A stretch of 44,316 nt of DNA from NCBI GenBank assembly GCA_018818965.1, contig JAHJQX010000037.1, positions 1 to 44,316 of the forward strand. The letters run 5' to 3'. The position numbers and the translations under genes were made by a program. Under the pieces are notes generated by a model, which saw only the letters and a program-made list of their open reading frames with translations, searched no databases and was not told the DNA's origin. Below, in pieces: positions 10,618 through 31,571 of this stretch (the first letter of the stretch is position 1; every line of letters begins with the position of its first letter). The DNA is from Patescibacteria group bacterium. Lineage in GTDB: Bacteria; Patescibacteriota; JABMPQ01.

Positions 10618-10688
10618 GCGGGTGTAGTTTAGTGGTAAAACTCCAGCCTTCCAAGCTGGTTACGTGGGTTCGATTCCCATCACCCGCT
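10618..10688 (+). tRNA. tRNA-Gly(UCC)
   Basis: GCGGGTG acceptor pairs with CACCCGC; anticodon loop CTTCCAA (anticodon TCC); T-arm GTGGGTTCGATTCCCAT; no encoded CCA. Confidence 0.92.
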
Positions 10689-10754: not shown

Positions 10755-11090
10755 ATACTCCCCCAGCACGATAAATTCGAGTCAAAAATAGGGCATATGC
10801 GACAGATTTGGGCTTCTGCCTTATTTGAAGGAAAGAAGTGGTGGTTCGAGGCAAAGTGGATAAGTGAGTAGACTAGGCAGGGTCAAATTAGAATATCACA
10901 AGATCAGAATACGACATACTGCTACGTGAAATAATTTATCTACCTAATCATGCCTAAAAACCAACCCATTCTTCTCACCAGCAACTAACAAGAAACTCTG
11001 GGATAAACTTCCCTAAAAAAACAAAAGATAGTATTGTGGAGTAAGCTGAAGTGATCTTTAAGTGTCTTGGTTTTTAAAACAATCAAATCT

Positions 11091-11663
11091 ATGAAAAGTT
11101 TTTCCTGTCTGGGATTGTTTTTGGTTGTCACTTTTGGCCTTATTCCCAGTTTACTAGTTGGTAAGGGCGATGCTATCAAGTTTGTTCAGAGAGAGGCAGG
11201 AATAAAATTGGAAAGACAAGACGAGCTGGAATATAATGACGAGGACTGGCTCGGTTTTGATTATGGCAAATATATCCAAGTAAAATTTTCTGAGGAAAGA
11301 TATAACGAGATTGTAGACCAGATAGAAGATGGGGCTTATGTTTCGCCCGATGTTGTAGAGTTCGCCTACTGTAGCAAGCCAGAGTACAGTGGCAATTATT
11401 GTAGTGTGGAGATAAAAGCGGGTAGCAAAAAGGATATTATCGCTCTAGCTACTGAGAAAGACACCAAGGGAGTCTGGTTTAAGATCGATGAAGGATATGG
11501 TTTCAGTGGATATTTTTCGGTGGCAAATTTTGAGAAAGAGGTGAACGGTGATGAGTCTAACCAAGACGAATCAGGATCACACGATTTTATTGAAGATTGT
11601 CATTCAAATATGATTCTAACTGAATCCGCCCGACAATTAGTAATTGAGTATATTTGTACATAG
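11091..11663 (+). CDS. Hypothetical exported protein
   Basis: Start chosen at MKSFSCLGLFLVVTFGLIPSLLVG (signal peptide); no recognised domain. Confidence 0.55.
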   Translation: MKSFSCLGLFLVVTFGLIPSLLVGKGDAIKFVQREAGIKLERQDELEYNDEDWLGFDYGKYIQVKFSEERYNEIVDQIEDGAYVSPDVVEFAYCSKPEYSGNYCSVEIKAGSKKDIIALATEKDTKGVWFKIDEGYGFSGYFSVANFEKEVNGDESNQDESGSHDFIEDCHSNMILTESARQLVIEYICT

Positions 11664-11676
11664 CAATAAATGCCTG

Positions 11677-12642
11677 ATGAAGAAAATAACCTTATATAAA
11701 ATTTATGGTATTTTTGTTCTCCTGATTCCGTTGGTGGTGGGTGCTATCGGCTATTATCATTATCATCGCGATGCAGCTATCAGGGGTAAAGTCAGTATCG
11801 ATCCGACTTTAAGCCAAGAGGATCTGTTGTATGTTTTTGTGGTCATGATTTTTTGTTTTCTGCTGACAATCCCCTTGAGTCTTAAAAGTAAAAACAGCAA
11901 GGAAATTATTAAAATCGCGGCGCTAGTTGCCGCCGCTGGTTTTTTGGTCGTTGTTTGCTCTACTTACGGTAATTATTATCTAGCAAAGTTAGTTAGCGAA
12001 TATCTGTATCCCGCTCATAGTGCTGTGATGCACTCAGGTGAAATTCCTCTTTTGATTTCAGCGATGCTGTATCTAGCCATAGCAATCTATGTTTTGGTCT
12101 TTGCTTGGGTAGTGTACGAGCTTAATAAAAAACACGTTGGTGGATCGATAAAAAATGTTATCGTCTTGGTGATTATGAGCAGCCTGGTTGGCCTAGGGAT
12201 CTACCGGATACATTATCTTGTTCCCGACGTTATGTTTGTAAATACTGAAGTGACCGAGGGGCAAGATCTAATAGTCACCACCAAATTGATATCATATCCA
12301 ATCAACGTCAATAAGTATTTGGTGGATGAGATTGACCACTTAGCTTTTGAAAAATGCGGCCGGCGATCCGTTATGAGAATAGATAAAGCGGCGACAAAAG
12401 TTTATCTGGGCGACTGGATATCACATTCAGATTTACGATTGGTGAAAAATGATGGTCAAACTGTCAACATTGGCTACGTGGAAGATAAGGCGTACTACCC
12501 CAGCAATAAGTGGGACAACACAGGCCATTACGATTTCGCTGTATCTCTAGCCAATCAGCTAGGAGTAAAACTTGAGACGAACGAGTGTTCCGCTATTGTC
12601 AACTGGGAACCCAATACTCGTCTGGATGACTTGGTTGATTAA
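11677..12642 (+). CDS. Hypothetical membrane protein (four or more TM helices)
   Basis: Start chosen at MKKITLYKIYGIFVLLIPLVVG; several hydrophobic segments then a soluble C-terminal domain. Confidence 0.55.
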   Translation: MKKITLYKIYGIFVLLIPLVVGAIGYYHYHRDAAIRGKVSIDPTLSQEDLLYVFVVMIFCFLLTIPLSLKSKNSKEIIKIAALVAAAGFLVVVCSTYGNYYLAKLVSEYLYPAHSAVMHSGEIPLLISAMLYLAIAIYVLVFAWVVYELNKKHVGGSIKNVIVLVIMSSLVGLGIYRIHYLVPDVMFVNTEVTEGQDLIVTTKLISYPINVNKYLVDEIDHLAFEKCGRRSVMRIDKAATKVYLGDWISHSDLRLVKNDGQTVNIGYVEDKAYYPSNKWDNTGHYDFAVSLANQLGVKLETNECSAIVNWEPNTRLDDLVD

Positions 12643-12944: not shown

Positions 12945-13838
12945 GTGTCAAATATTATTATTTCTGGTTCGACCAACCCCACCCTCGCCCGCCAGCTAGC
13001 CCGCCAAACCAAATCCCCACTCGCCCCAACGGAAATCACTAAGTTCCCTGACAACGAGACTTATGTGAACATTAAGCAAGATCTACACAGTCAAAACGTT
13101 TTTATCGTCCAATCCTGCTCCAATCCAGCTAATGAAAGCTTGATGGAGCTTCTGATCTTAATCGACGCAGCCAAGCGCTTGCAACCAAAAAAAATCACTG
13201 CCATTATCCCCTTCTATCCTTATCGCCGCCAAGAAAAGAAAGTCAAATCCGGCGAATCCGTCACGGCTGAACTAGTAGCTCGACTCCTTAAAGCTGCTGG
13301 AGCCAATAAAGTAATCGCCGTTGAATTGCACACCGAAAAAGTCGAAGCGTTTTTCGACTTTCCTCTAGTCCACATCCGGACTTTACCTTTGTTGATTGAA
13401 CATTTCGGTAAAAAGATTGATCAAGCACGAGATTTTATAGTTGTCGCTCCTGACCATGGCTCCGCTGACGAGTCTAGCACTTTGGCTAGTGCCCTTGGTA
13501 TCCCTTTGGCAGTGATTGACAAAACGCGCATCTCTTTTAACACTGTCGAAATCGAAAAATTAACTGGCGAAGTAGCTGGTAAAAACGTTATCATCATCGA
13601 CGATGAGATCAGCACCGGCGGCACTCTCTGTAAAGTGACGGCGGCTCTAAAAAAGCATAATGTCAAAGATATCTATGTCGGAGTGACTCATGGCGTCTTC
13701 GCTGATCAAGCAATCGCTAAAATTAACCGGGCGCCAATTAAAGAAGTAGTCATCACCGATACCATCCCCCAGACTAAAAAGTATAAAAAAATAAAGGTGC
13801 TGTCGGTAGTAGGACTAATAAGTAAAGAAATAAAATAA
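12945..13838 (+). CDS. prs: Ribose-phosphate pyrophosphokinase
   Basis: GTG start at 12945 (VSNIIISGSTNPTLARQLARQ); PFYPYRRQEKKVKSGESVTAELVARLL, VAPDHGSADESSTLASALGIP, VIIIDDEISTGGTL. Confidence 0.88.
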   Translation: MSNIIISGSTNPTLARQLARQTKSPLAPTEITKFPDNETYVNIKQDLHSQNVFIVQSCSNPANESLMELLILIDAAKRLQPKKITAIIPFYPYRRQEKKVKSGESVTAELVARLLKAAGANKVIAVELHTEKVEAFFDFPLVHIRTLPLLIEHFGKKIDQARDFIVVAPDHGSADESSTLASALGIPLAVIDKTRISFNTVEIEKLTGEVAGKNVIIIDDEISTGGTLCKVTAALKKHNVKDIYVGVTHGVFADQAIAKINRAPIKEVVITDTIPQTKKYKKIKVLSVVGLISKEIK

Positions 13839-13839
13839 C

Positions 13840-15024
13840 ATGTCCGATATCAAAAAAATCCTCGACCGTAAAGTCGAGGAAGTGATAGTTCAAGAAGAAT
13901 TAGAAAAGAAACTGGCCAGCGGCAAAAAATTGCGGATAAAATTAGGGGCCGATCCTTCCCGACCCGATCTACATATTGGCCACGCTGTAGTTTTAGGCAT
14001 CCTGAAGGCTTTTCAAGATATGGGTCACCAAATTGTCTTTATTATTGGCGATTACACGGCCAAGATCGGCGACCCTAGTGGAAAAAGCAAAACTCGTCCA
14101 ATTCTTTCCGACGCCGAGATCAAAAAAAACGCCCAGACTTACTTTGATCAAGTCGGTAAGATATTGGATGTCGACAAAACTGAGATTAGATATAACAGCG
14201 AGTGGTTTACTAAGAAAAATTTCGCTGATATTCTCGACTTGTGTGGTAAATTCACAGTCGCACGCATTACTGAGCGTGATGACTTTGCCAATCGCCTGCA
14301 AAAAGGTGTGGACGTGGGTCTGCACGAGCTGCTCTATCCTGTTATGCAAGCTTATGATTCAGTGGAGCTCAAGGCAGACGTAGAAGTGGGGGGTACGGAC
14401 CAAAGATTTAATATGCTAGCTGGTCGTAGTTTACAAAAGCGGCTGGGTCAGATACCGCAAGATGTGATCACCGGCAAATTACTAGTTGGCCTAGATGGCA
14501 CCGAGAAAATGAGCAAGAGTCTGGGTAACTACATTGGCCTGACCGAATCAGCTGACAGCATGTACGGCAAAGTAATGTCAATCCCCGATGATTTGATCGT
14601 CAATTACTTCGAACTAGCCACTCAGTGTCCGGAGGAGAAGGTTGAGGAGGTCAAAAAACAGTTAGAAGACGGAAAAACTAACCCACGCGACCTCAAGGCT
14701 GAGCTAGCTCGAAAAATTGTGACGCTTTATCATGATAATAAAGCAGCCATCGCGGCGGAAAAAGAATTTACTAAGATTTTTACACAAAAAGAAAGACCGA
14801 CAAACATAAAAACCCATAACCTACCGGCCACAACCTATAACCTAGTCGATTTGTTGCCAGAATTAGAGCTTGTTGACAGCAAAGGCGAGGGAAGACGCCT
14901 AATTGAGCAAGGCGCAGTAAAAATCGACGACAAAGTAGTAAAGGAATGGGATATAAAAATTAAAGTTAAGTCGGGAACAACAATACAGGTCGGGAAGAGA
15001 AAATTCGCTAAAGTAGAAGTATAA
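13840..15024 (+). CDS. tyrS: Tyrosyl-tRNA synthetase
   Basis: LGADPSRPDLHIGHAVVL (HIGH), GGTDQRFNMLAGR, EKMSKSLGNYIGL (KMSKS), C-terminal S4 domain. Confidence 0.93.
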   Translation: MSDIKKILDRKVEEVIVQEELEKKLASGKKLRIKLGADPSRPDLHIGHAVVLGILKAFQDMGHQIVFIIGDYTAKIGDPSGKSKTRPILSDAEIKKNAQTYFDQVGKILDVDKTEIRYNSEWFTKKNFADILDLCGKFTVARITERDDFANRLQKGVDVGLHELLYPVMQAYDSVELKADVEVGGTDQRFNMLAGRSLQKRLGQIPQDVITGKLLVGLDGTEKMSKSLGNYIGLTESADSMYGKVMSIPDDLIVNYFELATQCPEEKVEEVKKQLEDGKTNPRDLKAELARKIVTLYHDNKAAIAAEKEFTKIFTQKERPTNIKTHNLPATTYNLVDLLPELELVDSKGEGRRLIEQGAVKIDDKVVKEWDIKIKVKSGTTIQVGKRKFAKVEV

Positions 15025-15025
15025 A

Positions 15026-16015
15026 ATGCCAGAGTTAAAACGCAAACTAGTCAAGAAATCTGAGCTTAGCCGATTCGGTGCTTCTACCAAGGCTATAGTT
15101 GAAGCTGCCTGGAAAAAAGGAATTGAAGTTTTCTATATTCACCCTAAAAAAAGTATTTTTATCCTGAAACGCGACAACGTGGAAAAATGGTACTACAAAA
15201 GTAGAATGTCAGACGATAATCGAGTTGGAGCCTTAATAACAAAAGATAAGCAACTCACTAAAGAACTATTAGCAGCGATGGACGTGCCAACAGCGCTAGG
15301 AGCTGTAGTGCAAGAGGAAAAGACACTACTTAAAGAAGCTCAGCTCTTGGGGTATCCAGTAGTAGTGAAGCCAGCTGATTCCCAGGATGGCAAAGCTGTT
15401 TTTGTTAATATTTGCGATGATAAAACGCTCCGGAAATCTTTCCTGATTGCTAATCAGTATAGCGAGAATATAATGGTGGAAAAGTTTCTACCGGGTAGAT
15501 ATTATCGTTTTTTAGTAATCAATAAAAAGTTTTTTGCGGCGGCTGAAGCGAGGGGAGCTACCGTTGTCGGTAACGGCAAAAATACTCTGGCTGAATTGAT
15601 TGAAACCGAAAATAACAAAACCGACAAGGGAAAAAATAGCACCAGAAAAAAAATAGTCCTTAATGACAAAGCTAAAAGTTTTCTATTAACCCAAAAATTA
15701 ACGACCCAGAGTATACCTCCTCAGGGACAAGAAATAACTTTAAGTTTCTCGGGGGCAGACGGTGGTAAGTGGACAGATGTCACTGATCGAGCTCACCCCG
15801 ATAATAAAAAGATAAGTGAGAAAATTGCCACAACTTTAAATATGCGCCTGATAGGAGTTGACATCATGTCGCCTAATATCTCTAAGCCCTTGTCAGAAAA
15901 CGGCGGAGCAGTGATCGAAGTTAACTCTGCTCCCACCTTTGACATTCACCAACAACCTACGGCGGGCAAGCCCCGGCCAGTGGCTGCCGCTATCATTAAA
16001 ATGCTTTTTGAGTAA
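15026..16015 (+). CDS. Stand-alone ATP-grasp ligase related to the cyanophycin synthetase/GshAB ATP-grasp domain
   Basis: LGYPVVVKPADSQDGKAVFVNI, EKFLPGRYYRFLVINKKFFAAAEARGATVVGNGKNTLAELIE, IGVDIMSP...GAVIEVNSAPTFDIHQQPTAGKPRPVAAAI. Confidence 0.82.
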   Translation: MPELKRKLVKKSELSRFGASTKAIVEAAWKKGIEVFYIHPKKSIFILKRDNVEKWYYKSRMSDDNRVGALITKDKQLTKELLAAMDVPTALGAVVQEEKTLLKEAQLLGYPVVVKPADSQDGKAVFVNICDDKTLRKSFLIANQYSENIMVEKFLPGRYYRFLVINKKFFAAAEARGATVVGNGKNTLAELIETENNKTDKGKNSTRKKIVLNDKAKSFLLTQKLTTQSIPPQGQEITLSFSGADGGKWTDVTDRAHPDNKKISEKIATTLNMRLIGVDIMSPNISKPLSENGGAVIEVNSAPTFDIHQQPTAGKPRPVAAAIIKMLFE

Positions 16016-16034
16016 GTAGTCTCATCGCTACCAT

Positions 16035-16069
16035 AAAAAACCCTCGCGGCGAGAGCAGAGCGTGGGTTT
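16035..16069 (-). terminator. Terminator between convergent operons
   Basis: Imperfect stem AAACCC-T-CGC ... GCG-T-GGGTTT with an A6 tract on + (T6 on -) at the - strand 3' side. Confidence 0.65.
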
Positions 16070-16103
16070 GAAATTAATAAAAATAACAAAGGCGATTTAG
16101 TTT

Positions 16104-17024
16104 TTAAATTTTATTCTTAATACAGCCAATCAATTCTTCAACTCCGTCAACGCCAGATTGCTTCATCAACTCCGGGAAAAACCCCGGTAAAGTGTGAACA
16201 TCAACGATATAATATCCGCCATCTGCTGCCATAATAATATCCACTCCAGTGATATCAAGCTGAAAAGCCTGGGCGGCCTTGAGCGCTAGGTCGCGCTGTT
16301 CAGTTGTCGGTTCGACATAATCAACATCTCCCCCTTCCTTATTAGTATCCAACACTCTCCAATCGGCAATTTTAGTTGGCCTTTTACGATAGCCAAAAAG
16401 TATCTGGTTATTTACTACCGTCATCCCGCACCATTTTTTAATATCATTGCTGATATAGCGTTCTAGATAAAAACCCTTATCGGCTTCCTTGCCTAAATGA
16501 CCAATGACGTCACGGAGTGTTTCCTGATCATTTATTTTAACAATGCCAATGCCGAAAGATCCCTGGCGTGGTTTAAGTAATAAAGTCCCCCATTGTTCTA
16601 GTAATTTATAGCTCTGGTCAACGTTACGAGCAGAAATAAAAGCAAACTCAGGAGCAGCAATGCCATGTTGGTGCAAAATCATGTTAGAGGATAACTTATC
16701 AAGCCCTCGATAATAAGCAGGTGGATCGTTAATTACGGTAACTTTTCGGGCTAGGTTTTTGAGAATGTTGTAGTTATAAGAAAGCATCGCTCCCTTGGCA
16801 TACCAGAAATACAAATCGAGATCGGATAGACAAAAGTCATCAATATAAATACTACCACTTTTTATAACGGCGCGAGTGAAATCCAGATCTTCGAATAATT
16901 CCCAACGGTTTTCTTTTTTTAGTCTTTGCAAAAAAGCAGAACGAACTGGATTCTCCATTTTGCCCGCCGGGTGTTTTCCTTTTTCGGGAATCCACAAGCC
17001 AATTTTTTTTCTGAGAATTGCCAT
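16104..17024 (-). CDS. ATP-grasp protein (RimK/YheCD-like)
   Basis: GTLLLKPRQGSFGIGIVKI, FYLERYI, ITGVDIIMAADGGYYIVDVHTLPGF. Confidence 0.72.
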   Translation of the reverse strand: MAILRKKIGLWIPEKGKHPAGKMENPVRSAFLQRLKKENRWELFEDLDFTRAVIKSGSIYIDDFCLSDLDLYFWYAKGAMLSYNYNILKNLARKVTVINDPPAYYRGLDKLSSNMILHQHGIAAPEFAFISARNVDQSYKLLEQWGTLLLKPRQGSFGIGIVKINDQETLRDVIGHLGKEADKGFYLERYISNDIKKWCGMTVVNNQILFGYRKRPTKIADWRVLDTNKEGGDVDYVEPTTEQRDLALKAAQAFQLDITGVDIIMAADGGYYIVDVHTLPGFFPELMKQSGVDGVEELIGCIKNKI

Positions 17025-17041
17025 TTTGCAAAATCTAATTA

Positions 17042-18547
17042 TTAGCCTTTAGCTAAATAGCCAGGATAGAAAAATCTCTTCAGGCGTAACCATTTGACCG
17101 GCCGTAAATCAAAAGATTGATACACACTTCGTACCACTTGATCAGCCCACTGGTTTAGTTCGCCTGATTGCGTTCGGACCGAATTAAGGCATAGAACTCT
17201 ACCTAGTCTTCGACCTGGATCAAAATGAGAAAGTCGATAAGGAACACCGTCCGCCACAACAAACTCACCTTCGTTTTTAATATGACACAAATCGTAACCT
17301 GGTCTAATAAATTTAAGTTGGGAATTTTCTAACCGGTATACCCCGGCTTTTATTTCTCGATGATTTTGCACCATCTGCCTCACTAAATTATGCATTATCA
17401 TTTGCACGCCTCTTTTGGGCCGCCGGAGCATGGCATTGATATCATCAACATCTATCGAATAGTCCAGGTCGAGAAATTCCAGCAGGTGAAAAGCCAAAAT
17501 CGGGATCTCTCCATTTAAGTGTTGAACCATAGAGATAACGGGGAAACTGCCAAGCAGACGTGGGTTAGTTTCCACTATATATAACTTGTTTGTTTTATCA
17601 TCTAAAATAAAATCTAGTCCAAAAATTCCCTTGTATCCTTTGCTTTTAAAATATTGACCAATTTTTTCCACATACTCATAAGCCTGTTGATTGATATCAT
17701 TGCCTATCGCACTGGCAGAAGTCCAATCATGTCCACAGAAAAGACCCGACCCCGATTCAGGATTAAATAACTGGTTATTATCTAACAGCTGAAACTGTAA
17801 ATTAGTCGATAAGATCCCATGTTTTGTGACACAGGCTGTCAGACTAGGAGAGGAACCACGAATAAATTTTGCTACCAATACTTCCAGCTCCGCCAAGCCA
17901 ACTTCTTCTTCAGGGTCTTGATCACTTTTTTCAGCTATTTTCTGTAGAGCAGCATTCCAACTTGCTCGCCCCCTAATAAAAAAAGTGCCTTTTCCACCTC
18001 CCCGCCTGGGATGCTGGATCACGAAAGGTAGACCATATCTATTTTGTAATATTTTGTAATCAAGTTTCTGATAAAGACAAACTTCTCCGGGAATGACACC
18101 TAGGCCTAGTTCCTCTAAAATTTTCCGGAATTTTATTTTATCCTCAAACAAATCTTTGCCAAATTTATGGCTATTCATTAACAGCAGCCAATTATTTTGT
18201 TGGCATATTTCTTCTATACGAGCAGTAGACTTGTAAGGCAACAGGGCGGCTTGGCCAGGGAATTGAGCAATATAATCCCTGACTCTCGCCGACTCTACCA
18301 CCGTAGTAGAATTGCGCGGCTGGTTTATATGCTTGGTGCCCATACCCTTTTCCAAAGACAGCATCTCCACCTCCTTTTCAATTATTTCAGTATCTAAACT
18401 ATAACGCAGAGCTAAAAGTCGATAATCAGGGATAAACTTTTCTGGGCTTAGCCTGTTAAAAACATTGGTGCATACACCAAAAACGTTAGTCTTTAAATCA
18501 GTGGCCAAAAATTCTCTGAGAGACTTTAAATCAATTATTTGCTTCAT
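17042..18547 (-). CDS. ATP-grasp protein (carboxylate-amine ligase-like)
   Basis: GLPFVIQHPRRGGGKGTFFIRG, VLVAKFIRG, KGIFGLDFILDDKTNKLYIVETNPRLLGSFP. Confidence 0.78.
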   Translation of the reverse strand: MKQIIDLKSLREFLATDLKTNVFGVCTNVFNRLSPEKFIPDYRLLALRYSLDTEIIEKEVEMLSLEKGMGTKHINQPRNSTTVVESARVRDYIAQFPGQAALLPYKSTARIEEICQQNNWLLLMNSHKFGKDLFEDKIKFRKILEELGLGVIPGEVCLYQKLDYKILQNRYGLPFVIQHPRRGGGKGTFFIRGRASWNAALQKIAEKSDQDPEEEVGLAELEVLVAKFIRGSSPSLTACVTKHGILSTNLQFQLLDNNQLFNPESGSGLFCGHDWTSASAIGNDINQQAYEYVEKIGQYFKSKGYKGIFGLDFILDDKTNKLYIVETNPRLLGSFPVISMVQHLNGEIPILAFHLLEFLDLDYSIDVDDINAMLRRPKRGVQMIMHNLVRQMVQNHREIKAGVYRLENSQLKFIRPGYDLCHIKNEGEFVVADGVPYRLSHFDPGRRLGRVLCLNSVRTQSGELNQWADQVVRSVYQSFDLRPVKWLRLKRFFYPGYLAKG

Positions 18548-18686
18548 TTAATTTACAAACATTAGATAAATATTTTACACGAACGAAGTAAGCCATTTTT
18601 ACCTCTTTGACTTCAATTACGAATATCGAGACCACAATTGATATTATTCAGGATATTGTCTATTTTTTCATACCCCATTGACATTG

Positions 18687-20114
18687 TTATCTTTTGCCAA
18701 TATCTACGAGAAATTTTTTTAAATCCCTTTTCCCCACTATCATCTTGTACTTCAACAACCCCCGTTCAGTAATATTTACTCGAGAATATATTTTGATACC
18801 AGATAAATTAAATCTTAACTTGATATATGGCCTCAAGGTCAAACCATGAGCAGATCTGACATAAGTGACTTTAACGATTCTTTTATCCTTCTGCCCCAGC
18901 TTGTCAGCTAAGTTCCTTGCTTCTCTCTCCGCTTCCCTATCGGTCAGATTAGGATCAAGCTCATAGGTTTCCATTAAATCTAAAATGTCGCCATATCCCA
19001 ATTTGCGTGCCAAGCTTTGGTCGATTGAAGTAGAATCGGCGCCGGTGTCAATTTTAGCCAGAGCTTCCGCTTTTTTCTGACCTTCTTTGTCTAAAAATTG
19101 TACTTTCTCCACGCTACCAATCACCTCCCGTTTGGATACTTCTTCCACCCTTCTTTCTACATCCCCCCCGAATAAATCCTTGGCTATCCGTACACCACGC
19201 TCTACTGATTTAACTTTTAAACCCTTCACTCGCTTCAGCCGGGCCGCTAAGCCTTCCAAATTAGCAACTTGAATATCAAGCCCAGAACGAGCATTCAGCT
19301 CTAAAATTTCCGGTCCGTGACGCTTGTCAATCGCAATATCTACTCCTAAAAAACCAAGGCCGGAGGCGATCTGCACTTCAATGCTCATTTCCAAAATCCG
19401 ATCCCAATCTGGAATCTCTAAGCCAGCTAGTTCTTGACCGGTATCAGGGTGTCGCTCAATCATCCGGCGGCGGGGAATTTTCATCATTGCAGTGGTCGTT
19501 AAACCAGAATCAATATCAAGCCCCACTCCCAACGCTCCCTGAGCAATATTAGCTCGACCCCGCGATCTTTCCGTTGGCAAACGCAACATAGCCATCACTG
19601 GCACTTTGTTAAAAACAATAATCCGAATGTCAGGAATTCCCTTTTTGGTATATCCTTTAAATATTGGGTGAGTGGTAAGCCGGCGCTCAATAAAGGCAGT
19701 GTCCGACAAGCCTTGTAGAGAAAAACTACCATCCAAAATATCCAAAATGTGAGACTGGAGTTGATCATAAGTCAAAATGTCACCTCCACCAGTAACCCAC
19801 TCTCGCTTTCCTAGCGGCAATTTTAAAAACTTTTCTTTTTTTACACTACGTCGCAAAATCAAAATACCTTCACCACCAAAACCACGATTAGGTTTAATAA
19901 CAAAGTTAGCCGGCAGTTTTTTTCCATCAAACTCCCCCCAGTCTTTTACTGAACGAATCACACCATATAGCTTGGGGGTAGGGATACCAGTTTTGGCTAA
20001 TAATTCCTTGGTGGCTAGCTTATTATCAGCCAACTTAGTAGCATTTTTTTTATTGTAGGGACGGACAAAAGACAAATTTCTCTCATTCATCCCCAAAATG
20101 TCAGATCTTATCAT
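18687..20114 (-). CDS. Fusion: alpha-L-glutamate-ligase-like ATP-grasp (RimK-related, ATPgrasp_ST type) plus C-terminal RimB/Zn_protease-type retropepsin-like domain
   Basis: N-term: NFVIKPNRGFGGEGILIL, DIRIIVFNKVPVMAMLRLPTERSRGRANIAQGALGVGLD, EILELNARSGLDIQ. C-term: ALAKIDTGADSTSIDQSLARKLGY (DTGA), VTYVRSAHGLTLRPYIKLRFNLSGIKIYSRVNITERGLLKYKMIVGKRDL. Confidence 0.88.
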   Translation of the reverse strand: MIRSDILGMNERNLSFVRPYNKKNATKLADNKLATKELLAKTGIPTPKLYGVIRSVKDWGEFDGKKLPANFVIKPNRGFGGEGILILRRSVKKEKFLKLPLGKREWVTGGGDILTYDQLQSHILDILDGSFSLQGLSDTAFIERRLTTHPIFKGYTKKGIPDIRIIVFNKVPVMAMLRLPTERSRGRANIAQGALGVGLDIDSGLTTTAMMKIPRRRMIERHPDTGQELAGLEIPDWDRILEMSIEVQIASGLGFLGVDIAIDKRHGPEILELNARSGLDIQVANLEGLAARLKRVKGLKVKSVERGVRIAKDLFGGDVERRVEEVSKREVIGSVEKVQFLDKEGQKKAEALAKIDTGADSTSIDQSLARKLGYGDILDLMETYELDPNLTDREAEREARNLADKLGQKDKRIVKVTYVRSAHGLTLRPYIKLRFNLSGIKIYSRVNITERGLLKYKMIVGKRDLKKFLVDIGKR

Positions 20115-20119
20115 TGATC

Positions 20120-21676
20120 TTATTTATCCTGCCGTGACGTTTTCCGCACTGCGCGAAAACGAATATATTCGGAAATACGCAATCCCACCCATCTACCCAA
20201 TAAGATATTAATTATAAAAGTTAGCAAAATTACCTCCGGGTAAGCAAGAACAAAGGTGTTAAGAGCACTCCAACTAGCCAAATAGTAGCAAGCGACCGAA
20301 ACTAGGATTGTTTCCAAAGATAGTAAAATAGCAGTGCTGGGCCCCTTTTCCATTTGGATAGCGATAAATTTCTCAACTAGGATAATCAATACTAAAATCG
20401 GCAAGATAGATAGACCAATAATACCAGTTCGACTAGTCAACGCTCCAACAACAAACATAGCTAAGATAGCAAAAGCAACCACCGTCAGCACCATTGCCAT
20501 CCGGGGAAGATACAATAAGCGAAACTTTTTCAAGATTAGTCGCACTACGGTAGCTACCACCAAAATGACCAAAAATATCGCCAAGCCATATTTCAAACCA
20601 GTGGCCAAGAAGGATAACGTGATAATTGTCGGGGTATAAATACCAAAAGTTTTTAACCCCAAGAACTGACGGGCGAAGGCAACCACCGTAGCAATGACCG
20701 GCAGTATCAACATTAAATAAATATTATCTGTCGAAACACCCCGGTTGATTAGAAAGTTAATCGTGTAGCTCATAAAATTGGTCACACCCAGCTTGCCAAT
20801 TGCCCGTTCGCTATAGAAACTAATCAAATTATGATCGACGCCTGATTCCCGTACCGCTTGTAAAATTGCATCAGCTGTCCGGTTGTCGACCACATTATAC
20901 AAAGAAGTCTCTTTGGTTAAAAGAATGTACTGGGGTTTCAAAACGTCAAAGGTTGACTGGGCGTAGCGGGCTACAGGAGTAAAACCTCCTTCAGCTATAT
21001 TAACAATAGCCTTTCCAGACATATCTAGACTTCCCAGATCCTCAGTTTTCTGAGCAAATTTAGAAAGTACGCTCAAACCCAAACTACCTGAGGTCCAAAC
21101 TACTATAGCGGAGGATTTTTTAACAATCTCGCTATTCTCCAGCAGAGAATCAACTAGCAAACCTTCCGTGATATAATCAGTACTAGTTTCCGATGCCTTG
21201 ATATTAAATAATAGTATCCGCTGGCGGGAAGCATAGCGTCGTAAAGATTCTAGCTCATCAGTGGGAGGAGTAGCATCGGTTAGGAAGATAATAACATCAT
21301 CAAAAATCTTAACCGTAAGGTCATCAACATCCTTACCGACTTCGTTGCTCACTGTCAGGGTGGCTTTAAAATCACCAGAGTTTTGGTATTGGTGTTCTAC
21401 TTTTTGCCCCTCACCAAATTGGCCATCGCCAAAATCCCAACTATAGATAACTGCTTCACCGGCTTGCCCTTCCAGTTGCTGACCATTAAAGATCACTTTA
21501 CGATCCACCAGTTGTTCGATATCATCGCCCGCACTGGCTCTGGGAGGTTTGATTTCTGGTTGTTCTTCGACAATAGCTTCTTCTCCCTCAGCAGCAGCGA
21601 CAATTTTTGGCTGAGCCAAAGAAAATATTGGAGCCAAGAGGAGCACCAGTATTAATACTAACCATCGAATATTCAT
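20120..21676 (-). CDS. Membrane protein: signal peptide, PKD domain, unknown extracytoplasmic domain and a '7TM_transglut'-like 7-helix region
   Basis: PKD: RKVIFNGQQLEGQAGEAVIYSWDFGDGQFGEGQKVEHQYQNSGDFKATLTVSN. 7TM: LPVIATVVAFARQFLGLKTFGIYTPTIITLSFLATGLKYGLAIFLVILVVATVVRLILKKFRLLYLPRMAMVLTVV... resembles the 7TM regions found with inactive transglutaminase modules. Confidence 0.8.
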   Translation of the reverse strand: MNIRWLVLILVLLLAPIFSLAQPKIVAAAEGEEAIVEEQPEIKPPRASAGDDIEQLVDRKVIFNGQQLEGQAGEAVIYSWDFGDGQFGEGQKVEHQYQNSGDFKATLTVSNEVGKDVDDLTVKIFDDVIIFLTDATPPTDELESLRRYASRQRILLFNIKASETSTDYITEGLLVDSLLENSEIVKKSSAIVVWTSGSLGLSVLSKFAQKTEDLGSLDMSGKAIVNIAEGGFTPVARYAQSTFDVLKPQYILLTKETSLYNVVDNRTADAILQAVRESGVDHNLISFYSERAIGKLGVTNFMSYTINFLINRGVSTDNIYLMLILPVIATVVAFARQFLGLKTFGIYTPTIITLSFLATGLKYGLAIFLVILVVATVVRLILKKFRLLYLPRMAMVLTVVAFAILAMFVVGALTSRTGIIGLSILPILVLIILVEKFIAIQMEKGPSTAILLSLETILVSVACYYLASWSALNTFVLAYPEVILLTFIINILLGRWVGLRISEYIRFRAVRKTSRQDK

Positions 21677-21685
21677 AACGTTAAA

Positions 21686-22180
21686 TTACTTACAAATACT
21701 ATTTAATTTCTCTGAATTAGCGTGACAAATAGCCACTGCCAGAGCATCAGCCGCATCATCGGGCTGAGGAATTTTGTTAAGTCTCAATATTCTTTTGACC
21801 ATCTGCTGTATTTGAAGCTTATCAGCCCGACCATAGCCGGTCAAGGATTGCTTTATCTGTAAAGGAGTATATTCGGCTAGTGGTAGTCCAAACTGCTGGA
21901 TAGCTAACAGTATTCCTCCTCTGGCTTGAGCGACTGTGATAGCTGTCTTGACGTTTTTGAAGAAAAATAACTCTTCTACCGCTGCCGCCACCGGTTGATA
22001 TTCTTTAATCAGCGCCAGAATATCATCGTAAATGCATTTAATTCTCTCCGCTAAAGGTAGTCCAGCACAGGTAGTAACGCAACCACATTTTATATATTTA
22101 ATTTTACTGCCTGTTTTTTCTACCAGGCCAAAACCAGTAATTGCTGTACCGGGATCAATACCGAGAATAATCATACACAA
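21686..22180 (-). CDS. ruvC: Crossover junction endodeoxyribonuclease RuvC
   Basis: MIILGIDPGTAITGFGLVE, VEELFFFKNVKTAITVAQARGGIL, YTPLQIKQSLTGYGRADKLQIQQMV, DAADALAVAICH. Confidence 0.95.
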   Translation of the reverse strand: MCMIILGIDPGTAITGFGLVEKTGSKIKYIKCGCVTTCAGLPLAERIKCIYDDILALIKEYQPVAAAVEELFFFKNVKTAITVAQARGGILLAIQQFGLPLAEYTPLQIKQSLTGYGRADKLQIQQMVKRILRLNKIPQPDDAADALAVAICHANSEKLNSICK

Positions 22181-22185
22181 TAAAT

Positions 22186-22905
22186 TTAGTCGGCTAAATT
22201 ACTATAAACTTCGCCTACATCATCCAAATCGTCCAGGGCTTCCATTAATTTCTCTATTTTATTTAAAACATCTTTATCCTTTACTCGCAAAGGATTCTGA
22301 GGGATTAGCTCAATATCAGCCGATTCTACTCTAACTCCAATGGCAACTAGGGATTCTTTCACTGCTGATAACTTATTAGCTATAGTGACAATAACTAGAT
22401 TGCCATTTTGTTGTTCTATATCCTCTGCCCCCGCCTCAATAGCCGCCATCTCTATTTTATCACTCCCCGCCCCCGATATTCTTATAATACCTTTACTATC
22501 AAACATCCAGCGTACGCTACCGACCTCTCCCATCCGACCGCCATTATCAGTTAAAACATTTTTTACTTCTGCCAGAGTCCTATTATTATTATCAGAAATT
22601 GCTTCAATTATTAAAGCTACTCCACCAGGGCCATAAGCCTCATAGGCCAACTCCTTGAGTTGGATATTCTCTGATAATTCACCCGCTCCCTTCTTAATCG
22701 CCCGCTCGATGTTATCAGCTGGCATATTAACGGAACGTGCTTTATCAATAGCTAAGCGCAATTTAAAGTTCATTTCTGGATCACCACCACCAGATCTAGC
22801 CGCTACCGTAATTATATTGGCCATTTTGGTGAAAATCTGACCCCTCTTGGCATCATTGACTCCCTTTTTGCGCTTAATTGTGGACCATTTCGAGTGCCCG
22901 GACAT
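22186..22905 (-). CDS. yebC: YebC/PmpR family protein
   Basis: MSGHSKWSTIKRKKGVNDAKRGQIFTKMANIITVAAR, YEAYGPGGVALIIEAISDNNNRTLAEVKNVLTDNGG. Confidence 0.95.
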   Translation of the reverse strand: MSGHSKWSTIKRKKGVNDAKRGQIFTKMANIITVAARSGGGDPEMNFKLRLAIDKARSVNMPADNIERAIKKGAGELSENIQLKELAYEAYGPGGVALIIEAISDNNNRTLAEVKNVLTDNGGRMGEVGSVRWMFDSKGIIRISGAGSDKIEMAAIEAGAEDIEQQNGNLVIVTIANKLSAVKESLVAIGVRVESADIELIPQNPLRVKDKDVLNKIEKLMEALDDLDDVGEVYSNLAD

Positions 22906-22931
22906 AATCGAGTTTCTTGATATTTTATACT

Positions 22932-22959
22932 AAAAACCGTCTGACTACATAATCAGACG
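22932..22959 (-). terminator. Rho-independent terminator of the CaCA exchanger gene
   Basis: CGTCTGA-N8-TCAGACG hairpin (22938-22959) followed on - strand by GGTTTTT. Confidence 0.75.
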
Positions 22960-23038
22960 CCTGTATTGTACGTCTTTTTAGTCAAAAGTGTCAATTGACC
23001 ATACTGCTTTGGTCCCTCTAATTTTTTCCTTAACTTCT

Positions 23039-23980
23039 TCACTGCCTTATGCTCAATTCCACAATTATAAAAATAATATAAAACATTATTAAAATTATCC
23101 CCTCTTTCCAAGACAACCTATCTTTTGTTCTTAAAAGAAAAGTAAAAAGGACTAGAACAACGACCAGAAAAGCGGCGGCAACTATAAATAACGAAAAATC
23201 AGCGATAGTTATAGGATAAATTAATCCGACCAAACCTAAAACCAGAGCTGAATTAGTAACTACACTCCCTAAAAGATCACCGAGAGCCATCCCCTCGCGC
23301 TTCGCTAGAACTGCTTTAACTTCAAATACTAGTTCAGGCAGCGAAGTGCCAATGGCCAAAAAAGCTACACCAATCAAGATTAAGGGTACGCCAAATTCGA
23401 TGGCTAAATTAGAGCCAAGATCAACAATAATCTTGGCAGAGGCTACAAGCAATACTACACCAACAACGAAAAGAAAAACACTTTTAAAAAATTCTTTTCT
23501 AGCAACATGATTAGAGATTTTCTTAAATCTTTTCCGTTGTCTCCAAAGTCTTAAAGCATAAAGAAAGAAGGCAAGTAGTAATACTAGGCCATCTGTTCTT
23601 GACAAGTACCGATCCAACATTAAAAGTATAGGCAAGATAGCAACACCAACTGCAAAGTAAGTATCCCTAATCACAATTTTACCTTTAATTTGAATCCCCC
23701 GGGCAAGAATAGCTACTAACCCAATTACTAAAGTTATATCAACAATGTTGGATCCTATAACATCTCCCAGAGACAAAGAGGGAACTTTATTCATAGCTGA
23801 GGTAACCCCGACAAACAATTCTGGTATCGACGTTGCTAAAGCCATGATAATAAAGCCAACTACAAAATCAGAAAGTCGCAAATAAGCGGCAATCTTTATC
23901 AAAGCCTTGATAGTCAGTGTGGCACTGACAACCAAAACAATACAGGCGACTAGGAAAAAAACGATGGATGAGATAATCAC
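23039..23980 (-). CDS. CaCA-family Na+/Ca2+ exchanger-like protein
   Basis: 313 aa; duplicated alpha repeats: ATSIPELFVGVTSAMNKVPSLSLGDVIGSNIVDITLVIG and IGTSLPELVFEVKAVLAKREGMALGDLLGSVVTNSALVLG. Confidence 0.92.
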   Translation of the reverse strand: MIISSIVFFLVACIVLVVSATLTIKALIKIAAYLRLSDFVVGFIIMALATSIPELFVGVTSAMNKVPSLSLGDVIGSNIVDITLVIGLVAILARGIQIKGKIVIRDTYFAVGVAILPILLMLDRYLSRTDGLVLLLAFFLYALRLWRQRKRFKKISNHVARKEFFKSVFLFVVGVVLLVASAKIIVDLGSNLAIEFGVPLILIGVAFLAIGTSLPELVFEVKAVLAKREGMALGDLLGSVVTNSALVLGLVGLIYPITIADFSLFIVAAAFLVVVLVLFTFLLRTKDRLSWKEGIILIMFYIIFIIVELSIRQ

Positions 23981-24248
23981 TTTTGGTAATTAAAATAAAC
24001 TCCAAAGAAATAGAGCAGGGAACGATATCTAAACTTCCCGATGGCGTTTCTTTCTCCTAACAAACATTCACTTTGTAATTTCAATTGCTATGATGTTAAG
24101 TATAGTCAATCCTACTAACAACGACTAGTCACTAAGGCCTAGAAAAACAATCCTTAGAACACTGCGACCGCTTCTTGTGAATGGAATAGAGGCCTACTAA
24201 CTTTTAATTAACATTGTTTCTCTCCCCGAAGTGTAGCATACTGGATTT

Positions 24249-27578: not shown

Positions 27579-30500
27579 CTAGTCACGGTTACCCAAGGTA
27601 ACATTTACTCCTCCCCGGAAACTACTATCATAAGCCCAAAACCAATTCAATAATTCCAATCGAGATTCCTGTAAATTGTAAACCCGTAAATTGGGACCAC
27701 CACCAGTTTTAGGAGTAATGACTAGTTCAACTTTTCCATCTTCGTTTAAGTCACGAGCAGCAATGTGTACGCCCTGACGGAAGCTACTGTTGTAGGCCAT
27801 GAACCAATCTAAGAGATTAGAGAAAGAACCATTTTCATATTTGTAAATTCGAATATTGGCTCCTCCTTTCCCCTCTGGAGCAGTTATAATCTCTGCCTGA
27901 CCATCATAGTCAAAATCGCCGACAGCTAAACTAACTCCGCCACGAAATTTTTCGTCATAAGCCATGAACCAGCCCAGCGGGTTAATTTGACCATTAGCTA
28001 AACTATAAACTCTGACATTAGGTCCACCGCCACTACGAGGAGCTACTACCAACTCTGCGCTACCATCTCCATCTAAATCGCCACTGGCCATATTAACTCC
28101 TCCATGGTATCCCTCGTCATAAGCTAACACCCAATCTACCAATTCAAGTTCACCCTCTGTGTACTGGTAGACCCTTATATTAGCTGAACCGTGGGTAAGG
28201 GGAGCAGTAATCAATTCCGATTGCCCGTCCCCAGTTAGGTCGCCAGCTGCCAAGCTAACACCACCATGAAACTTTTCATCATAAGCCATTTGCCAAGTAA
28301 GTAACTCAAATTTTCCGCCAGAGTAACTGTAAACCCTTACATTTGAACCACCCTGGCCTTCCGGAGCGACAATTATCTCATCCTTACCATCATTGTTTAA
28401 ATCAGCTGCTACCACGTTCAGGCCACCCCGAAATCCTTCATCATAAGCCATAAAAGAAGCTATCGCCTCACCTTGTTGCGTAAACGCCCGAACATGAGGA
28501 CCCATTCCCTCCCCCGGATAAGTGATTATTTCCTCGGCTCCTTCACCATCGATATTAGCCATCACTGATTTGAACTCACCGCGTAATTTATCACTGTAGG
28601 CAAAGAAGGATTTTAATTTAGTACCATCCGCTTTATAGGTAATATACTGAGGGCCACCAGCCGATTGTGGTGAGGTTACCACTAACCCGTTAACCATTTC
28701 TCCAGAAGAAGGAGTGGGAGTAGGCTGACGACTATCGCTAGCTGGAGTAGGAACTCCAGTGATGTTAAACTTGGTTAGATGCTCCGAATAAGCAACTACT
28801 CGATTTTGTTCAGAATCAACCAGAGTAGCCATGCCTCCACTATTCCAATATTCCTCATTGTCAGCAAAATATTGCGGCACTAGATTATTTTCTGTAATAT
28901 CCTGCTGTTCTAATAATGCCTCATCGTAAGGTAATGAAATTTTAGCTGGACTTCCTAAATTACTAACCTCAACCCCACTGCCGTTGCGGGCTTTGACGTT
29001 ATATGACACTGAGACGGGATCACCAGCCATACTTGGATTCAATTCAACACTTGGTTCTAAACTAACCTCGACTGTCCCACTAGTATCAATAGCAAAGGGA
29101 GAAAGCTGCACCGTGCTGCCGGAAGGCAAAGTAACGCTAGCTAACTGGTCAGCGTCAAATTCCCTAGTAACTGAGCCAGGCACTGATATATTTGCGTCTT
29201 CTAGTGTTAGGTTCCGCTGATTTGCGCCCGCCTCAGTAGTAACAGTGCTTTCAATTTTCAGAAGATTATTACCCGATACGGCCGCGGCTGTTAATTTCCA
29301 CTCATCTCCCGCGTCTACTGGCAAAGAATACTGGCCATTGGCATCAATATCATCTTTGACAAAACCACCATTCTCAGTATAAGCGCCAACGCTACCGGAA
29401 GAAACTGGATTACCGCTAGCATCCAAAACAACACCGCTGATAACAGCGTCAGAGTCAGTAAAAGACAGGTTAGCAGTCTGAGTAACCCCGGCGGTGATAT
29501 TTATTATCTGAGCTTCCGGCTCAATCACGTTATCCGCCAAATCAGGTGTAACCCCAGTAATTATTTTATACTCTCCCGCTGGTACAGCTAGTGAATAATC
29601 TCCATTGGCATCAGCGTAAGTGGACACCTGAACTACATCCTCGGGTTCAAATTCACCTACTCCTTCTAAGATGGGTAAATTGGTGGCTATTACTGGTGCT
29701 AGAGCTACATCTTCCCCATCCGGATCGAGGATTGATCCACTTATCGTTGCTTCCTCTTCTTTGGCTCCTAAGTCTAAACTGGCAGTCTGGCCATTACTCA
29801 CTATTACTCGATTATCTTGGACAGCCGGACTAATTATATTTGAATCTTCATCTTGAACCTGATAAGTAACATTCCAGTTGCCCGCTGGGACACTGAGCGA
29901 ATACCGGCCATCAGTACCCATCGTCCCTTTCTCTATGTTGTCACTAGCGTCTACTGCTATTACTACCACATCATTTTCCCCCGGTTGCAAAGTATCCCCA
30001 TCGCTGTCCTTTAATTCACCGGTAATGGTAGAACTTTCCGGAGAAAGCCCTAAATCCAAGCCCGTGTTAGGACTGACAGTAGCAGTAGCTGCCTGCGGTA
30101 GACTATAACTCGAACCAACATCAGAAGCCACCCCCACTTCCACTGATTGCCCTGATAAAGCAGTGGGTAATGGTATCTCGTACTGGCCATTATCGACCGC
30201 TGTGCCAAAAACCTCACCAGTTGTAGCAGTAACATAAACTGTGCCAGAAAAATCATCAATAGTATTGTTGCTTTCATCTTTTATTTCACCCATAACCTGT
30301 TGATCCATTCTTTCTACCACTAGATTATTGTCACTGGAAGTATCACCGTTGTTAGCAATATTTACTGAGCGAGAATTAGTTAAACGATATTGATTGCCAG
30401 CTCCTTGGTTAACCCCGATAGTCCAAGTTCCTTCTCCCACTGTAAATGAATATCCGCCATTGGGGTCTGTATCAGTTGCCAAAAATTGAGGAGTCTCCGC

Positions 30501-31571
30501 GCTAGAAGCAGTGACTTGAATATTAGCGACGGGATTCCCTAAAGTGTCAATTACTCCACCACTGATGGTGGCACTGTTGTGTTGTGCTTGAATGGTACCC
30601 AAGTTTTTGTTTTCTCCTTCTCGCAAGACAAACTTGGTTTGGTTGGCGGGAAAAGCAGAACCGCTTAAAGCATTGTGATAACACCATATCCCATATATTC
30701 CCGCTGGCAAACCGATGTTAACTAATTGACTGTTAGCATCGACTTTACGGATTGTACCAACACCGTCAGAACGACTAAGATCACAATCCGCCCGAAATTG
30801 ACCAGAGGTAAGAAGATCCCCATCAGCATCCAGAAAAGTGCCCGATACTGAAGCGGTAGTATTCTCAACCGTAAAATTGGCTGATGCAGTTTCTGCACTA
30901 TCGTCACTAGCAAAGGAAACATCTACGGCTGGCCCGGTAGGTAACCAATCAGTGTTATAATCGCTAAGATTGACCTCGGCCTTTACACTCCAAGAAGGCA
31001 CACCCGACTGCAAATTCAGGGAATATTGACCATTTTGGTCAGTAACAGCACTAACTCGACTTATCCCTTGTTTCCCCACTGGATAAGCTGATATTTCTAC
31101 TCCTTGCTTTAGAGCACCTGTATCTTTCATAGTAGCTGTCCCCGTAACGATCTTGGGAGCAATCACTAATTGAAAACTGACTGGGTTGCCAGAAAAGGTA
31201 GAACCATCCCAAGTAAAATTAACTGGCGAATTAGTGGGGCGATTGTAGCCTGATGGCGGTGACACTTCCAGAACTAACTGATCCCCATCAGTCAGGGGGT
31301 TAGCCTGCAATTGAGCATCATCGGTATTAAAACTAAAATTCCCACCGGCATCAGTCATATCATTGTAGGATTTGAGCCCGTCCCCAGTATGTAAAGAAAC
31401 TTGAACATTCTCTTCAGCAGCACCGAGCTCATCCAACACCGTCCCACTTACTACTAAGGTCCCTGCTCGGGCAATGGGTATAACTGCCCACCCATTCGAC
31501 ATCAGCATTATCAAGGTGAAGACGCTGATCCATGATAATAACCGCCAGCATTTTTTACTCTTTTTGCTCAT
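27579..31571 (-). CDS. Large secreted protein: tandem carboxypeptidase-regulatory/Cna-B-like repeats plus C-terminal FG-GAP-type beta-propeller
   Basis: 1330 aa; signal peptide; repeats such as SGTVLDELGAAEENVQVSLHTGDGLKSYNDMTDAGGNFSF; C-terminal repeats MAYDEKFRGGVSLAxGDxxxDGxxEIITAPxGxGGxNIRVY. Confidence 0.85.
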   Translation of the reverse strand: MSKKSKKCWRLLSWISVFTLIMLMSNGWAVIPIARAGTLVVSGTVLDELGAAEENVQVSLHTGDGLKSYNDMTDAGGNFSFNTDDAQLQANPLTDGDQLVLEVSPPSGYNRPTNSPVNFTWDGSTFSGNPVSFQLVIAPKIVTGTATMKDTGALKQGVEISAYPVGKQGISRVSAVTDQNGQYSLNLQSGVPSWSVKAEVNLSDYNTDWLPTGPAVDVSFASDDSAETASANFTVENTTASVSGTFLDADGDLLTSGQFRADCDLSRSDGVGTIRKVDANSQLVNIGLPAGIYGIWCYHNALSGSAFPANQTKFVLREGENKNLGTIQAQHNSATISGGVIDTLGNPVANIQVTASSAETPQFLATDTDPNGGYSFTVGEGTWTIGVNQGAGNQYRLTNSRSVNIANNGDTSSDNNLVVERMDQQVMGEIKDESNNTIDDFSGTVYVTATTGEVFGTAVDNGQYEIPLPTALSGQSVEVGVASDVGSSYSLPQAATATVSPNTGLDLGLSPESSTITGELKDSDGDTLQPGENDVVVIAVDASDNIEKGTMGTDGRYSLSVPAGNWNVTYQVQDEDSNIISPAVQDNRVIVSNGQTASLDLGAKEEEATISGSILDPDGEDVALAPVIATNLPILEGVGEFEPEDVVQVSTYADANGDYSLAVPAGEYKIITGVTPDLADNVIEPEAQIINITAGVTQTANLSFTDSDAVISGVVLDASGNPVSSGSVGAYTENGGFVKDDIDANGQYSLPVDAGDEWKLTAAAVSGNNLLKIESTVTTEAGANQRNLTLEDANISVPGSVTREFDADQLASVTLPSGSTVQLSPFAIDTSGTVEVSLEPSVELNPSMAGDPVSVSYNVKARNGSGVEVSNLGSPAKISLPYDEALLEQQDITENNLVPQYFADNEEYWNSGGMATLVDSEQNRVVAYSEHLTKFNITGVPTPASDSRQPTPTPSSGEMVNGLVVTSPQSAGGPQYITYKADGTKLKSFFAYSDKLRGEFKSVMANIDGEGAEEIITYPGEGMGPHVRAFTQQGEAIASFMAYDEGFRGGLNVVAADLNNDGKDEIIVAPEGQGGSNVRVYSYSGGKFELLTWQMAYDEKFHGGVSLAAGDLTGDGQSELITAPLTHGSANIRVYQYTEGELELVDWVLAYDEGYHGGVNMASGDLDGDGSAELVVAPRSGGGPNVRVYSLANGQINPLGWFMAYDEKFRGGVSLAVGDFDYDGQAEIITAPEGKGGANIRIYKYENGSFSNLLDWFMAYNSSFRQGVHIAARDLNEDGKVELVITPKTGGGPNLRVYNLQESRLELLNWFWAYDSSFRGGVNVTLGNRD

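Follow-up and report, generated by a model that had tools for sequence, protein, structure and literature searches.

An Rlo-like gene cluster of Patescibacteria with a ligase-protease fusion and an exchangeable ATP-grasp cassette

The closest described relative of the locus presented here is the rloABC operon of Pseudomonas aeruginosa, whose genes form one pathway and, when mutated, alter osmotic tolerance, sensitivity to beta-lactams and shape; 96% of RloB hits were reported in Proteobacteria (PMC12239564). In Pseudomonas, systems of the RloABC type are important for tolerating osmotic stress and for the antibiotic response. The Rlo operon, RimK-RimB and MATCAP are already known. Here we describe a related cluster in a 44,316-nucleotide stretch of DNA (the window), contig JAHJQX010000037.1 of the Patescibacteria group bacterium assembly GCA_018818965.1. 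Its core consists of an RloB-like seven-transmembrane (7TM) protein and a fusion of ligase and protease, which we call RloCA. Between this core and tyrS lies a cassette of further ATP-grasp ligases whose content is exchanged between close relatives. We read the cluster as an envelope peptide-ligation system in which a conserved ligase and trimmer work with interchangeable ligases, that is, as an expanded patescibacterial form of the Rlo/Rim ligase-plus-eraser arrangement, and our confidence in this reading is evenly balanced.

The RloB-RloCA core

The window (contig C36) belongs to a genome of 1.2 Mb with a completeness score of 100%. Open reading frames and domain searches bore out the original prediction that four ATP-grasp genes of different subtype and a gene for a PKD/7TM protein lie at 15026-21676 (Table 1; genes are named by first position and strand). 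That prediction had also drawn on a Proteobacterial context of a RimK-related ligase, an inactive-transglutaminase/7TM protein and a RimB-like protease, which is real and corresponds to the rloABC operon (PMC12239564). The retropepsin-like protease that it listed is present but has no gene of its own: it forms the C-terminal ~145 residues of 18687-, the RloCA gene. The ATP-grasp part of RloCA matched PF14397 (1.4e-68) and TIGR02291 (3.9e-83); it scored 279 bits against a TIGR02291 cut-off of 314 and was judged to qualify as the ligase beside RloB. For the retropepsin part, the matches to the RloA3 model (3.4e-4) and to Zn_protease (9.5e-5) are each sub-threshold alone; the DTG motif is conserved and the profile of the RloCA family matched the RloA structures 9g59 (9.6e-7) and 9g58 (1.1e-4). 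The AlphaFold2 (AF2) model is a confident two-domain fold with a mean predicted local distance difference test score (pLDDT) of 87.8 and has RimK (5zct) as its top PDB match. Seven ligase residues (K32, K74, R164, R178, D259, E272 and N274) are invariant across all complete RloCA homologues, and the retropepsin DTG is kept in 90/93 of them. Two loci showed damage in the system: an in-frame stop within RloCA in L101 (genome G017) and a broken frame in a cassette ATP-grasp in L097 (genome G011), either decay or assembly errors.

The PF14402 match of the RloB-like protein 20120- passes the gathering cut-off, which places it in the 7TM_transglut family. The protein starts with a signal or transmembrane segment, followed by a PKD domain (residues 44-123), an alpha/beta domain (~127-285) and the 7TM domain (~298-517); a simple hydropathy scan found one N-terminal hydrophobic segment (at 1) and seven C-terminal ones (314-471). 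Neither Pfam nor AF2/Foldseek searches found the inactive transglutaminase domain in the window protein, its place being taken by the PKD and alpha/beta domains, and we therefore call the system 'Rlo-like' rather than a strict Rlo member. The RloB model NF052267 matched nothing but the 7TM part of the window protein, as it did in 33/33 relatives, with scores well under the model cut-off. In PDB sequence searches and in fold searches with the AF2 model (pLDDT 84), every good match fell in the PKD domain; those to the alpha/beta domain were weak (Nir2 C-terminal domain, low TM-score). A relationship to the poly-gamma-glutamate exporter subunit PgsC/CapC was considered and found unsupported: this family is absent among the weak Pfam and NCBIfam hits, in a comparison that involved no direct profile alignment. 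In the Moranbacteria loci L129-L198, RloB has only ~217 residues and consists of the 7TM domain alone, with neither PKD nor extracellular domain.

The original prediction depended on a neighbourhood conserved in relatives and on intact ATP-grasp active sites; the RloB-RloCA neighbourhood is kept, as are the active-site residues of the core ligase. Among 58 related genomes, the window's own included, 22 encode RloB-like PF14402 proteins and the same 22 encode RloCA fusions. The two genes adjoin in 21 of these; in the remaining genome, G012, each lies at the end of a different contig. GTDB genomes were scanned as well and yielded 80 named loci, almost all of which carry the label Patescibacteria; most are from Moranbacteria, with others from Doudnabacteria, Torokbacteria, Kerfeldbacteria, Falkowbacteria and Dojkabacteria. 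After removal of duplicates we worked with 95 loci that contain RloCA. RloB is directly upstream of RloCA in 89 of them. Five of the other six have a contig end or gap at this place and one an unlabelled open reading frame of 226 codons. Further upstream, ruvC is found within three genes in 69/95 loci and yebC in 52/95.

The ligase cassette and its turnover

The original prediction counted two ATP-grasps beyond the usual set. There are three beyond the Rlo core, and they are a variable cassette, not a fixed set, almost fully replaced between close relatives. DNA of a congener (L089) aligns to the window at 12994-15012 (76%, prs to tyrS) and at 18687-24142 (77%, starting at the RloCA stop codon and covering ruvC and yebC), with no alignment between 15012 and 18687, i.e. 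within the cassette. RloCA is 84% and RloB 87% identical in this pair, whereas the three cassette ATP-grasps of the window and the five of the congener share at most ~35% identity. We then compared genome pairs with complete cassettes in which RloCA is at least 70% identical (70-91%). Across the 20 independent pairs among 73 such pairs, 72/76 cassette ligases lack a counterpart of at least 45% identity. As flank controls over all 73 pairs, RloB had a minimum identity of 61% (median 77%) and the class A penicillin-binding protein (PBP) one of 55% (median 66%). The flanks are kept and the filling is exchanged between close relatives.

Such wholesale replacement between conserved flanks would also be seen at a plain recombination hotspot whose slot genes have no functional relation to RloB-RloCA. 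The content of the slot is non-random, however: counting cassette genes of at least 140 codons in the 95 loci, 144/235 were ATP-grasps compared to 2/822 of the other genes of the same loci (61% versus 0.2%), and the rest are for the most part genes of the peptidase, glycan or Mur type. In 75/95 loci between one and five additional ATP-grasps lie downstream of RloCA. The ligases are linked to RloCA in most genomes, and arbitrary genes are missing from the cassettes. We therefore consider a hotspot alone highly unlikely. Clustering of the ATP-grasps by chance is rejected by the same enrichment together with the conserved neighbourhood. Among the further cassette genes are those for MATCAP, glycosyltransferases, YdjC-like proteins, GNATs (in two cassettes), a Mur-ligase-like protein and DUF3541. 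A class A PBP lies within the run in 42/95 loci of several lineages, often as the last gene of the cassette. At L093:960-3635 (+) RloCA has beside it a cyanophycin-synthetase-like protein of almost complete length (771.6 bits, cut-off 850), followed by DUF3541 and two further ATP-grasps.

In the window itself, 17042- is a distant match to PRK06524/biotin-carboxylase-type ATP-grasps (3.4e-42), was rejected as a PRK06524 equivalog (144 bits, cut-off 684) and has orthologues of 45-51% identity in the RloCA clusters of L091, L103 and L104. The gene 16104- fell short of the curated models both for the RimK family (99.8 bits, cut-off 143.4) and for the S6 ligase (51 against 331); its nearest cassette homologues are L187_11 and L149_12 (~34%). 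The plus-strand gene 15026+ matched the NCBIfam cyanophycin synthetase (6.7e-86, ATP-grasp part only) and PDB entry 7lgn (3.1e-43). It was rejected as cyanophycin synthetase (CphA), as it covers only profile positions 147-473 of ~870 and lacks the Mur-ligase half. Locus L091 carries the best relatives of 17042- (51%) and 15026+ (47%) side by side in the operon downstream of RloCA, which ties 15026+ to the Rlo-like system although it is inverted in the window.

The CphA-type domain of 15026+, which also matches the model for the synthetase of N-acetylglutaminylglutamine, brings up a different product: an osmolyte dipeptide of that kind, or a cyanophycin-like storage polymer, turned over by the protease. 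The CphA-like neighbour in L093, the GNATs and the influence of rlo genes on osmotic tolerance fit this idea. It would have to do without the Mur-ligase half of CphA in 15026+ and without a cyanophycinase, of which none was seen in the clusters, and it leaves the constant 7TM membrane protein and the fast swapping of ligases unexplained; we regard it as quite improbable. The combination of several ATP-grasps, a protease and a membrane protein likewise recalls graspetide-like pathways, as does the cassette turnover, which resembles that of antagonistic peptide loci. In such a pathway the ATP-grasps would mature a ribosomal or secreted peptide and RloB would export it. The ligases belong to families of the RimK, CphA, GshB and RloC type, not to graspetide families, a precursor gene was not recognised in an analysis without a systematic search for one, and no PADLOC match was obtained. 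Hardly any weight remains for this explanation. An anti-phage defence system was also rejected, as none of the five proteins matches PADLOC models at 1e-3.

A proposed role in the envelope

In three loci RloCA has lost the catalytic Asp of its retropepsin. In L105 and L109 a MATCAP domain (PF08014) is fused to the C-terminus of RloCA, in L110 a MATCAP gene follows directly after it, and the HExxxH motif is intact in all three. MATCAP occurs in 15/95 loci, 12 of them with an intact retropepsin. If losses were placed at random, the coincidence would have a probability of ~0.0035, a figure that is uncorrected for ancestry and comes from a small sample of three cases in different families. Pseudomonas RloA cuts poly-Glu runs of eight or more residues (PMC12239564) and human MATCAP-family enzymes deglutamylate tubulin (PMC10499314). 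As both thus act on glutamate-rich tails, we infer that the ligase makes an acidic peptide; we also counted towards this that the best fold match of the RloC ligase, RimK, is a poly-Glu synthetase. With the retropepsin exchanged for MATCAP, the range of candidate products shrinks to acidic peptides, a prediction that biochemistry can test. A separate arrangement was observed at L091:9016-11942, where a MATCAP/QEGLA gene and a gene for a 612-residue protein with an N-formylglutamate amidohydrolase domain lie between RloCA and two ATP-grasps. A search run without a positive control found no MATCAP elsewhere in the window's genome.

In the mechanism we propose, RloC would extend an envelope precursor by an acidic peptide, probably rich in glutamate. 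The fused retropepsin (or the MATCAP carboxypeptidase in some lineages) would trim this peptide, and the cassette ligases would append further lineage-specific residues. RloB might export the product across the membrane, anchor it or sense it, and the peptide would end in the envelope, where its most probable site is within or on peptidoglycan. Substrate and chemistry are here what we infer. There is an established precedent for an ATP-grasp that attaches an amino acid to a wall precursor: in lactic acid bacteria, AslA joins D-Asp to the stem of peptidoglycan (PMC4155827). In Pseudomonas, the loss of rloB or rloC rescues protease loss (PMC12239564), which suggests that the product of ligase and 7TM protein is harmful when untrimmed.

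The location of RloCA leaves room for another substrate. A simple hydropathy scan found no signal peptide or membrane segment, and the protein is apparently cytosolic. RloCA and the cassette ligases could then extend the tails of cytosolic proteins, with retropepsin or MATCAP removing the extensions and RloB acting as a membrane-bound regulator. Precedents for tail ligation are RimK on ribosomal protein S6 and the TTL/TTLL enzymes on tubulin. RloCA resembles RimK in structure, retropepsins and MATCAP both trim tails in known tagging systems, and a match to the TTL family was obtained for one of the congener's cassette ligases. On the other hand, a conserved target would hardly be expected to require ligases that differ completely from one congener to the next, the neighbouring class A PBP, YdjC and glycosyltransferase genes indicate the envelope, and RloB is always coupled to RloCA. 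We regard tagging of cytosolic proteins as unlikely. Of the original prediction, a tagging system linked to the cell surface, peptide ligation and cleavage with a link to the surface is still the best reading, whereas tagging of proteins is just one possibility.

The assignment to the envelope draws on the class A PBP, YdjC, glycosyltransferase, Mur-ligase and CphA-like genes among the cassettes, the PBP being the main argument for peptidoglycan as the destination. Several observations weigh against an envelope system of this kind. The cluster of the window contains no PBP and the only PBP of the genome is on another contig; the PBP association is strongest in one lineage, the Moranbacteria. 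The envelope phenotypes stem from the distant Pseudomonas system, whose protease is secreted. No solved structure matched the RloB 7TM domain in PDB sequence and fold searches, so that the export role is a guess. The region of Arg-99, which binds poly-Glu in Pseudomonas RloA, aligns poorly in RloCA and has an insertion, so that by our reading the residue has no clear counterpart. Finally, 16104- reads D-V-H where its relatives have D/E-x-N, with His at the expected metal-binding Asn; its activity is less certain and the protein may be altered or inactive.

Within the envelope reading, the exchange of the cassette as a block could reflect diversifying selection on the outer residues by phages, hosts or predators, as at capsule and O-antigen loci. 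Cells of Patescibacteria are often attached to other microbes, and their envelope chemistry is hardly known. Tentatively, the cluster might be a peptide 'serotype' locus, by which Patescibacteria vary the peptide chemistry of wall or surface through exchanging ATP-grasp blocks between the RloB-RloCA core and a wall polymerase; we see this as possible rather than probable. Peptide bonds would then do what sugars do in the capsules and O-antigens of other bacteria, and the hypervariable cassette of ligases, which in many lineages neighbours a class A PBP, would represent a novel kind of locus for surface diversification.

Locus layout and comparison with described systems

The original prediction gave gaps of 5, 9 and 5 nucleotides. 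These values are correct and belong to yebC-ruvC, ruvC-RloB and RloB-RloCA, respectively; gaps of 139 nucleotides (RloCA to 17042-) and 17 nucleotides (17042- to 16104-) follow. A consensus scan found no minus-strand terminator-like site in the 139 nucleotides. With the hairpin and the promoter-like site of Table 1, a single transcription unit from yebC to 16104- is plausible, where the prediction had called it probable.

Table 1. Positions of the cluster, its flanks and candidate signals in the window, and of RloCA genes that lack the catalytic Asp in three other loci.
Feature	Position	Strand	Remarks
tyrS	13840..15024	+	Conserved gene bordering the far end of the cassette; 86% to congener
Variable ligase cassette	15025..18686	both	Between tyrS and RloCA stop codon
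CphA/GshAB-type stand-alone ATP-grasp domain, 329 aa	15026..16015	+	Cassette member; convergent with operon
Terminator-like hairpin	16040..16056	-	After last minus-strand gene; consensus scan only
RimK-family ATP-grasp, 306 aa	16104..17024	-	Cassette member; PF08443 4.2e-18
PRK06524-related ATP-grasp, 501 aa	17042..18547	-	Cassette member; E-T-N metal motif intact
RloC-RloA fusion RloCA, 475 aa	18687..20114	-	ATP-grasp residues 1-300, C-terminal retropepsin ~330-475
RloA-like retropepsin domain of RloCA	18690..19127	-	Catalytic DTG at 19041-19049
RloB-like protein, 518 aa	20120..21676	-	PF14402 7.1e-31, PKD_4 3.3e-16
ruvC	21686..22180	-	PF02075; conserved upstream neighbour
yebC	22186..22905	-	PF01709; conserved upstream neighbour
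Promoter-like site TTGACA-18-TACAAT	22965..22994	-	Upstream of yebC; consensus scan only, 11/12
RloCA without catalytic Asp	L105:8811-11195; L109:5801-7804; L110:8020-9375		MATCAP fused or adjacent

Elsewhere in the window there is a tRNA-Gly (TCC) at 10618-10688, 98.7% identical to the end of the congener contig. A protein of 1929 residues is encoded at 38355-44144; its N-terminus resembles an M23 peptidase by eye and is followed by Ig-like/FG-GAP-like repeats, and similar repeats occur at 3522-5327 and 27579-31571. A membrane protein of 332 residues (11644-12642), preceded by an unassigned open reading frame of 198 codons (11067-11663), has a sub-threshold match to DUF3413 as its sole match.

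With rloABC the cluster shares the retropepsin-like protease, the 7TM protein of the inactive-transglutaminase family and the RimK-like ATP-grasp. It differs in that RloA is fused C-terminally to RloC, lacks a signal peptide and is presumably cytosolic, whereas Pseudomonas RloA is separate and secreted (PMC12239564); in that RloB carries PKD and alpha/beta domains in place of the inactive transglutaminase, or is the 7TM domain alone (Moranbacteria); in that most loci add one to five ATP-grasps; and in its host phylum, the Patescibacteria instead of the Proteobacteria. The ribosome-modifying RimK-RimB system likewise pairs an ATP-grasp glutamate ligase with a retropepsin of the cytosol, by which the product is taken off again (PMC11957791), whereas both activities are here on one chain, linked to a 7TM protein, from another ATP-grasp family (TIGR02291/PF14397) and with several partner ligases. 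In the tubulin code, ATP-grasp-type TTL/TTLL ligases are opposed by MATCAP/TMCP, HExxxH carboxypeptidases of the same family as here (PMC10499314); the present system is bacterial and has no tubulin, and in three lineages the retropepsin gives way to MATCAP, which two of them carry as a fusion to the ligase. The D-aspartate ligase AslA shares the cytosolic addition of an amino acid to a cell-wall precursor by an ATP-grasp but is a single dedicated enzyme with no swappable set, and a protease or RloB partner is unmentioned in PMC4155827. Searches of the open-access literature yielded no account of a fused RloC-RloA protein, of the exchange for MATCAP or of a swappable ligase cassette and, for Patescibacteria, nothing relevant on Rlo-type operons, ATP-grasps or hypervariable loci of the wall. 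Capsule and O-antigen loci also have conserved flanks between which the biosynthetic genes are replaced wholesale; the enzymes swapped there are glycosyltransferases, whereas here they are peptide ligases.

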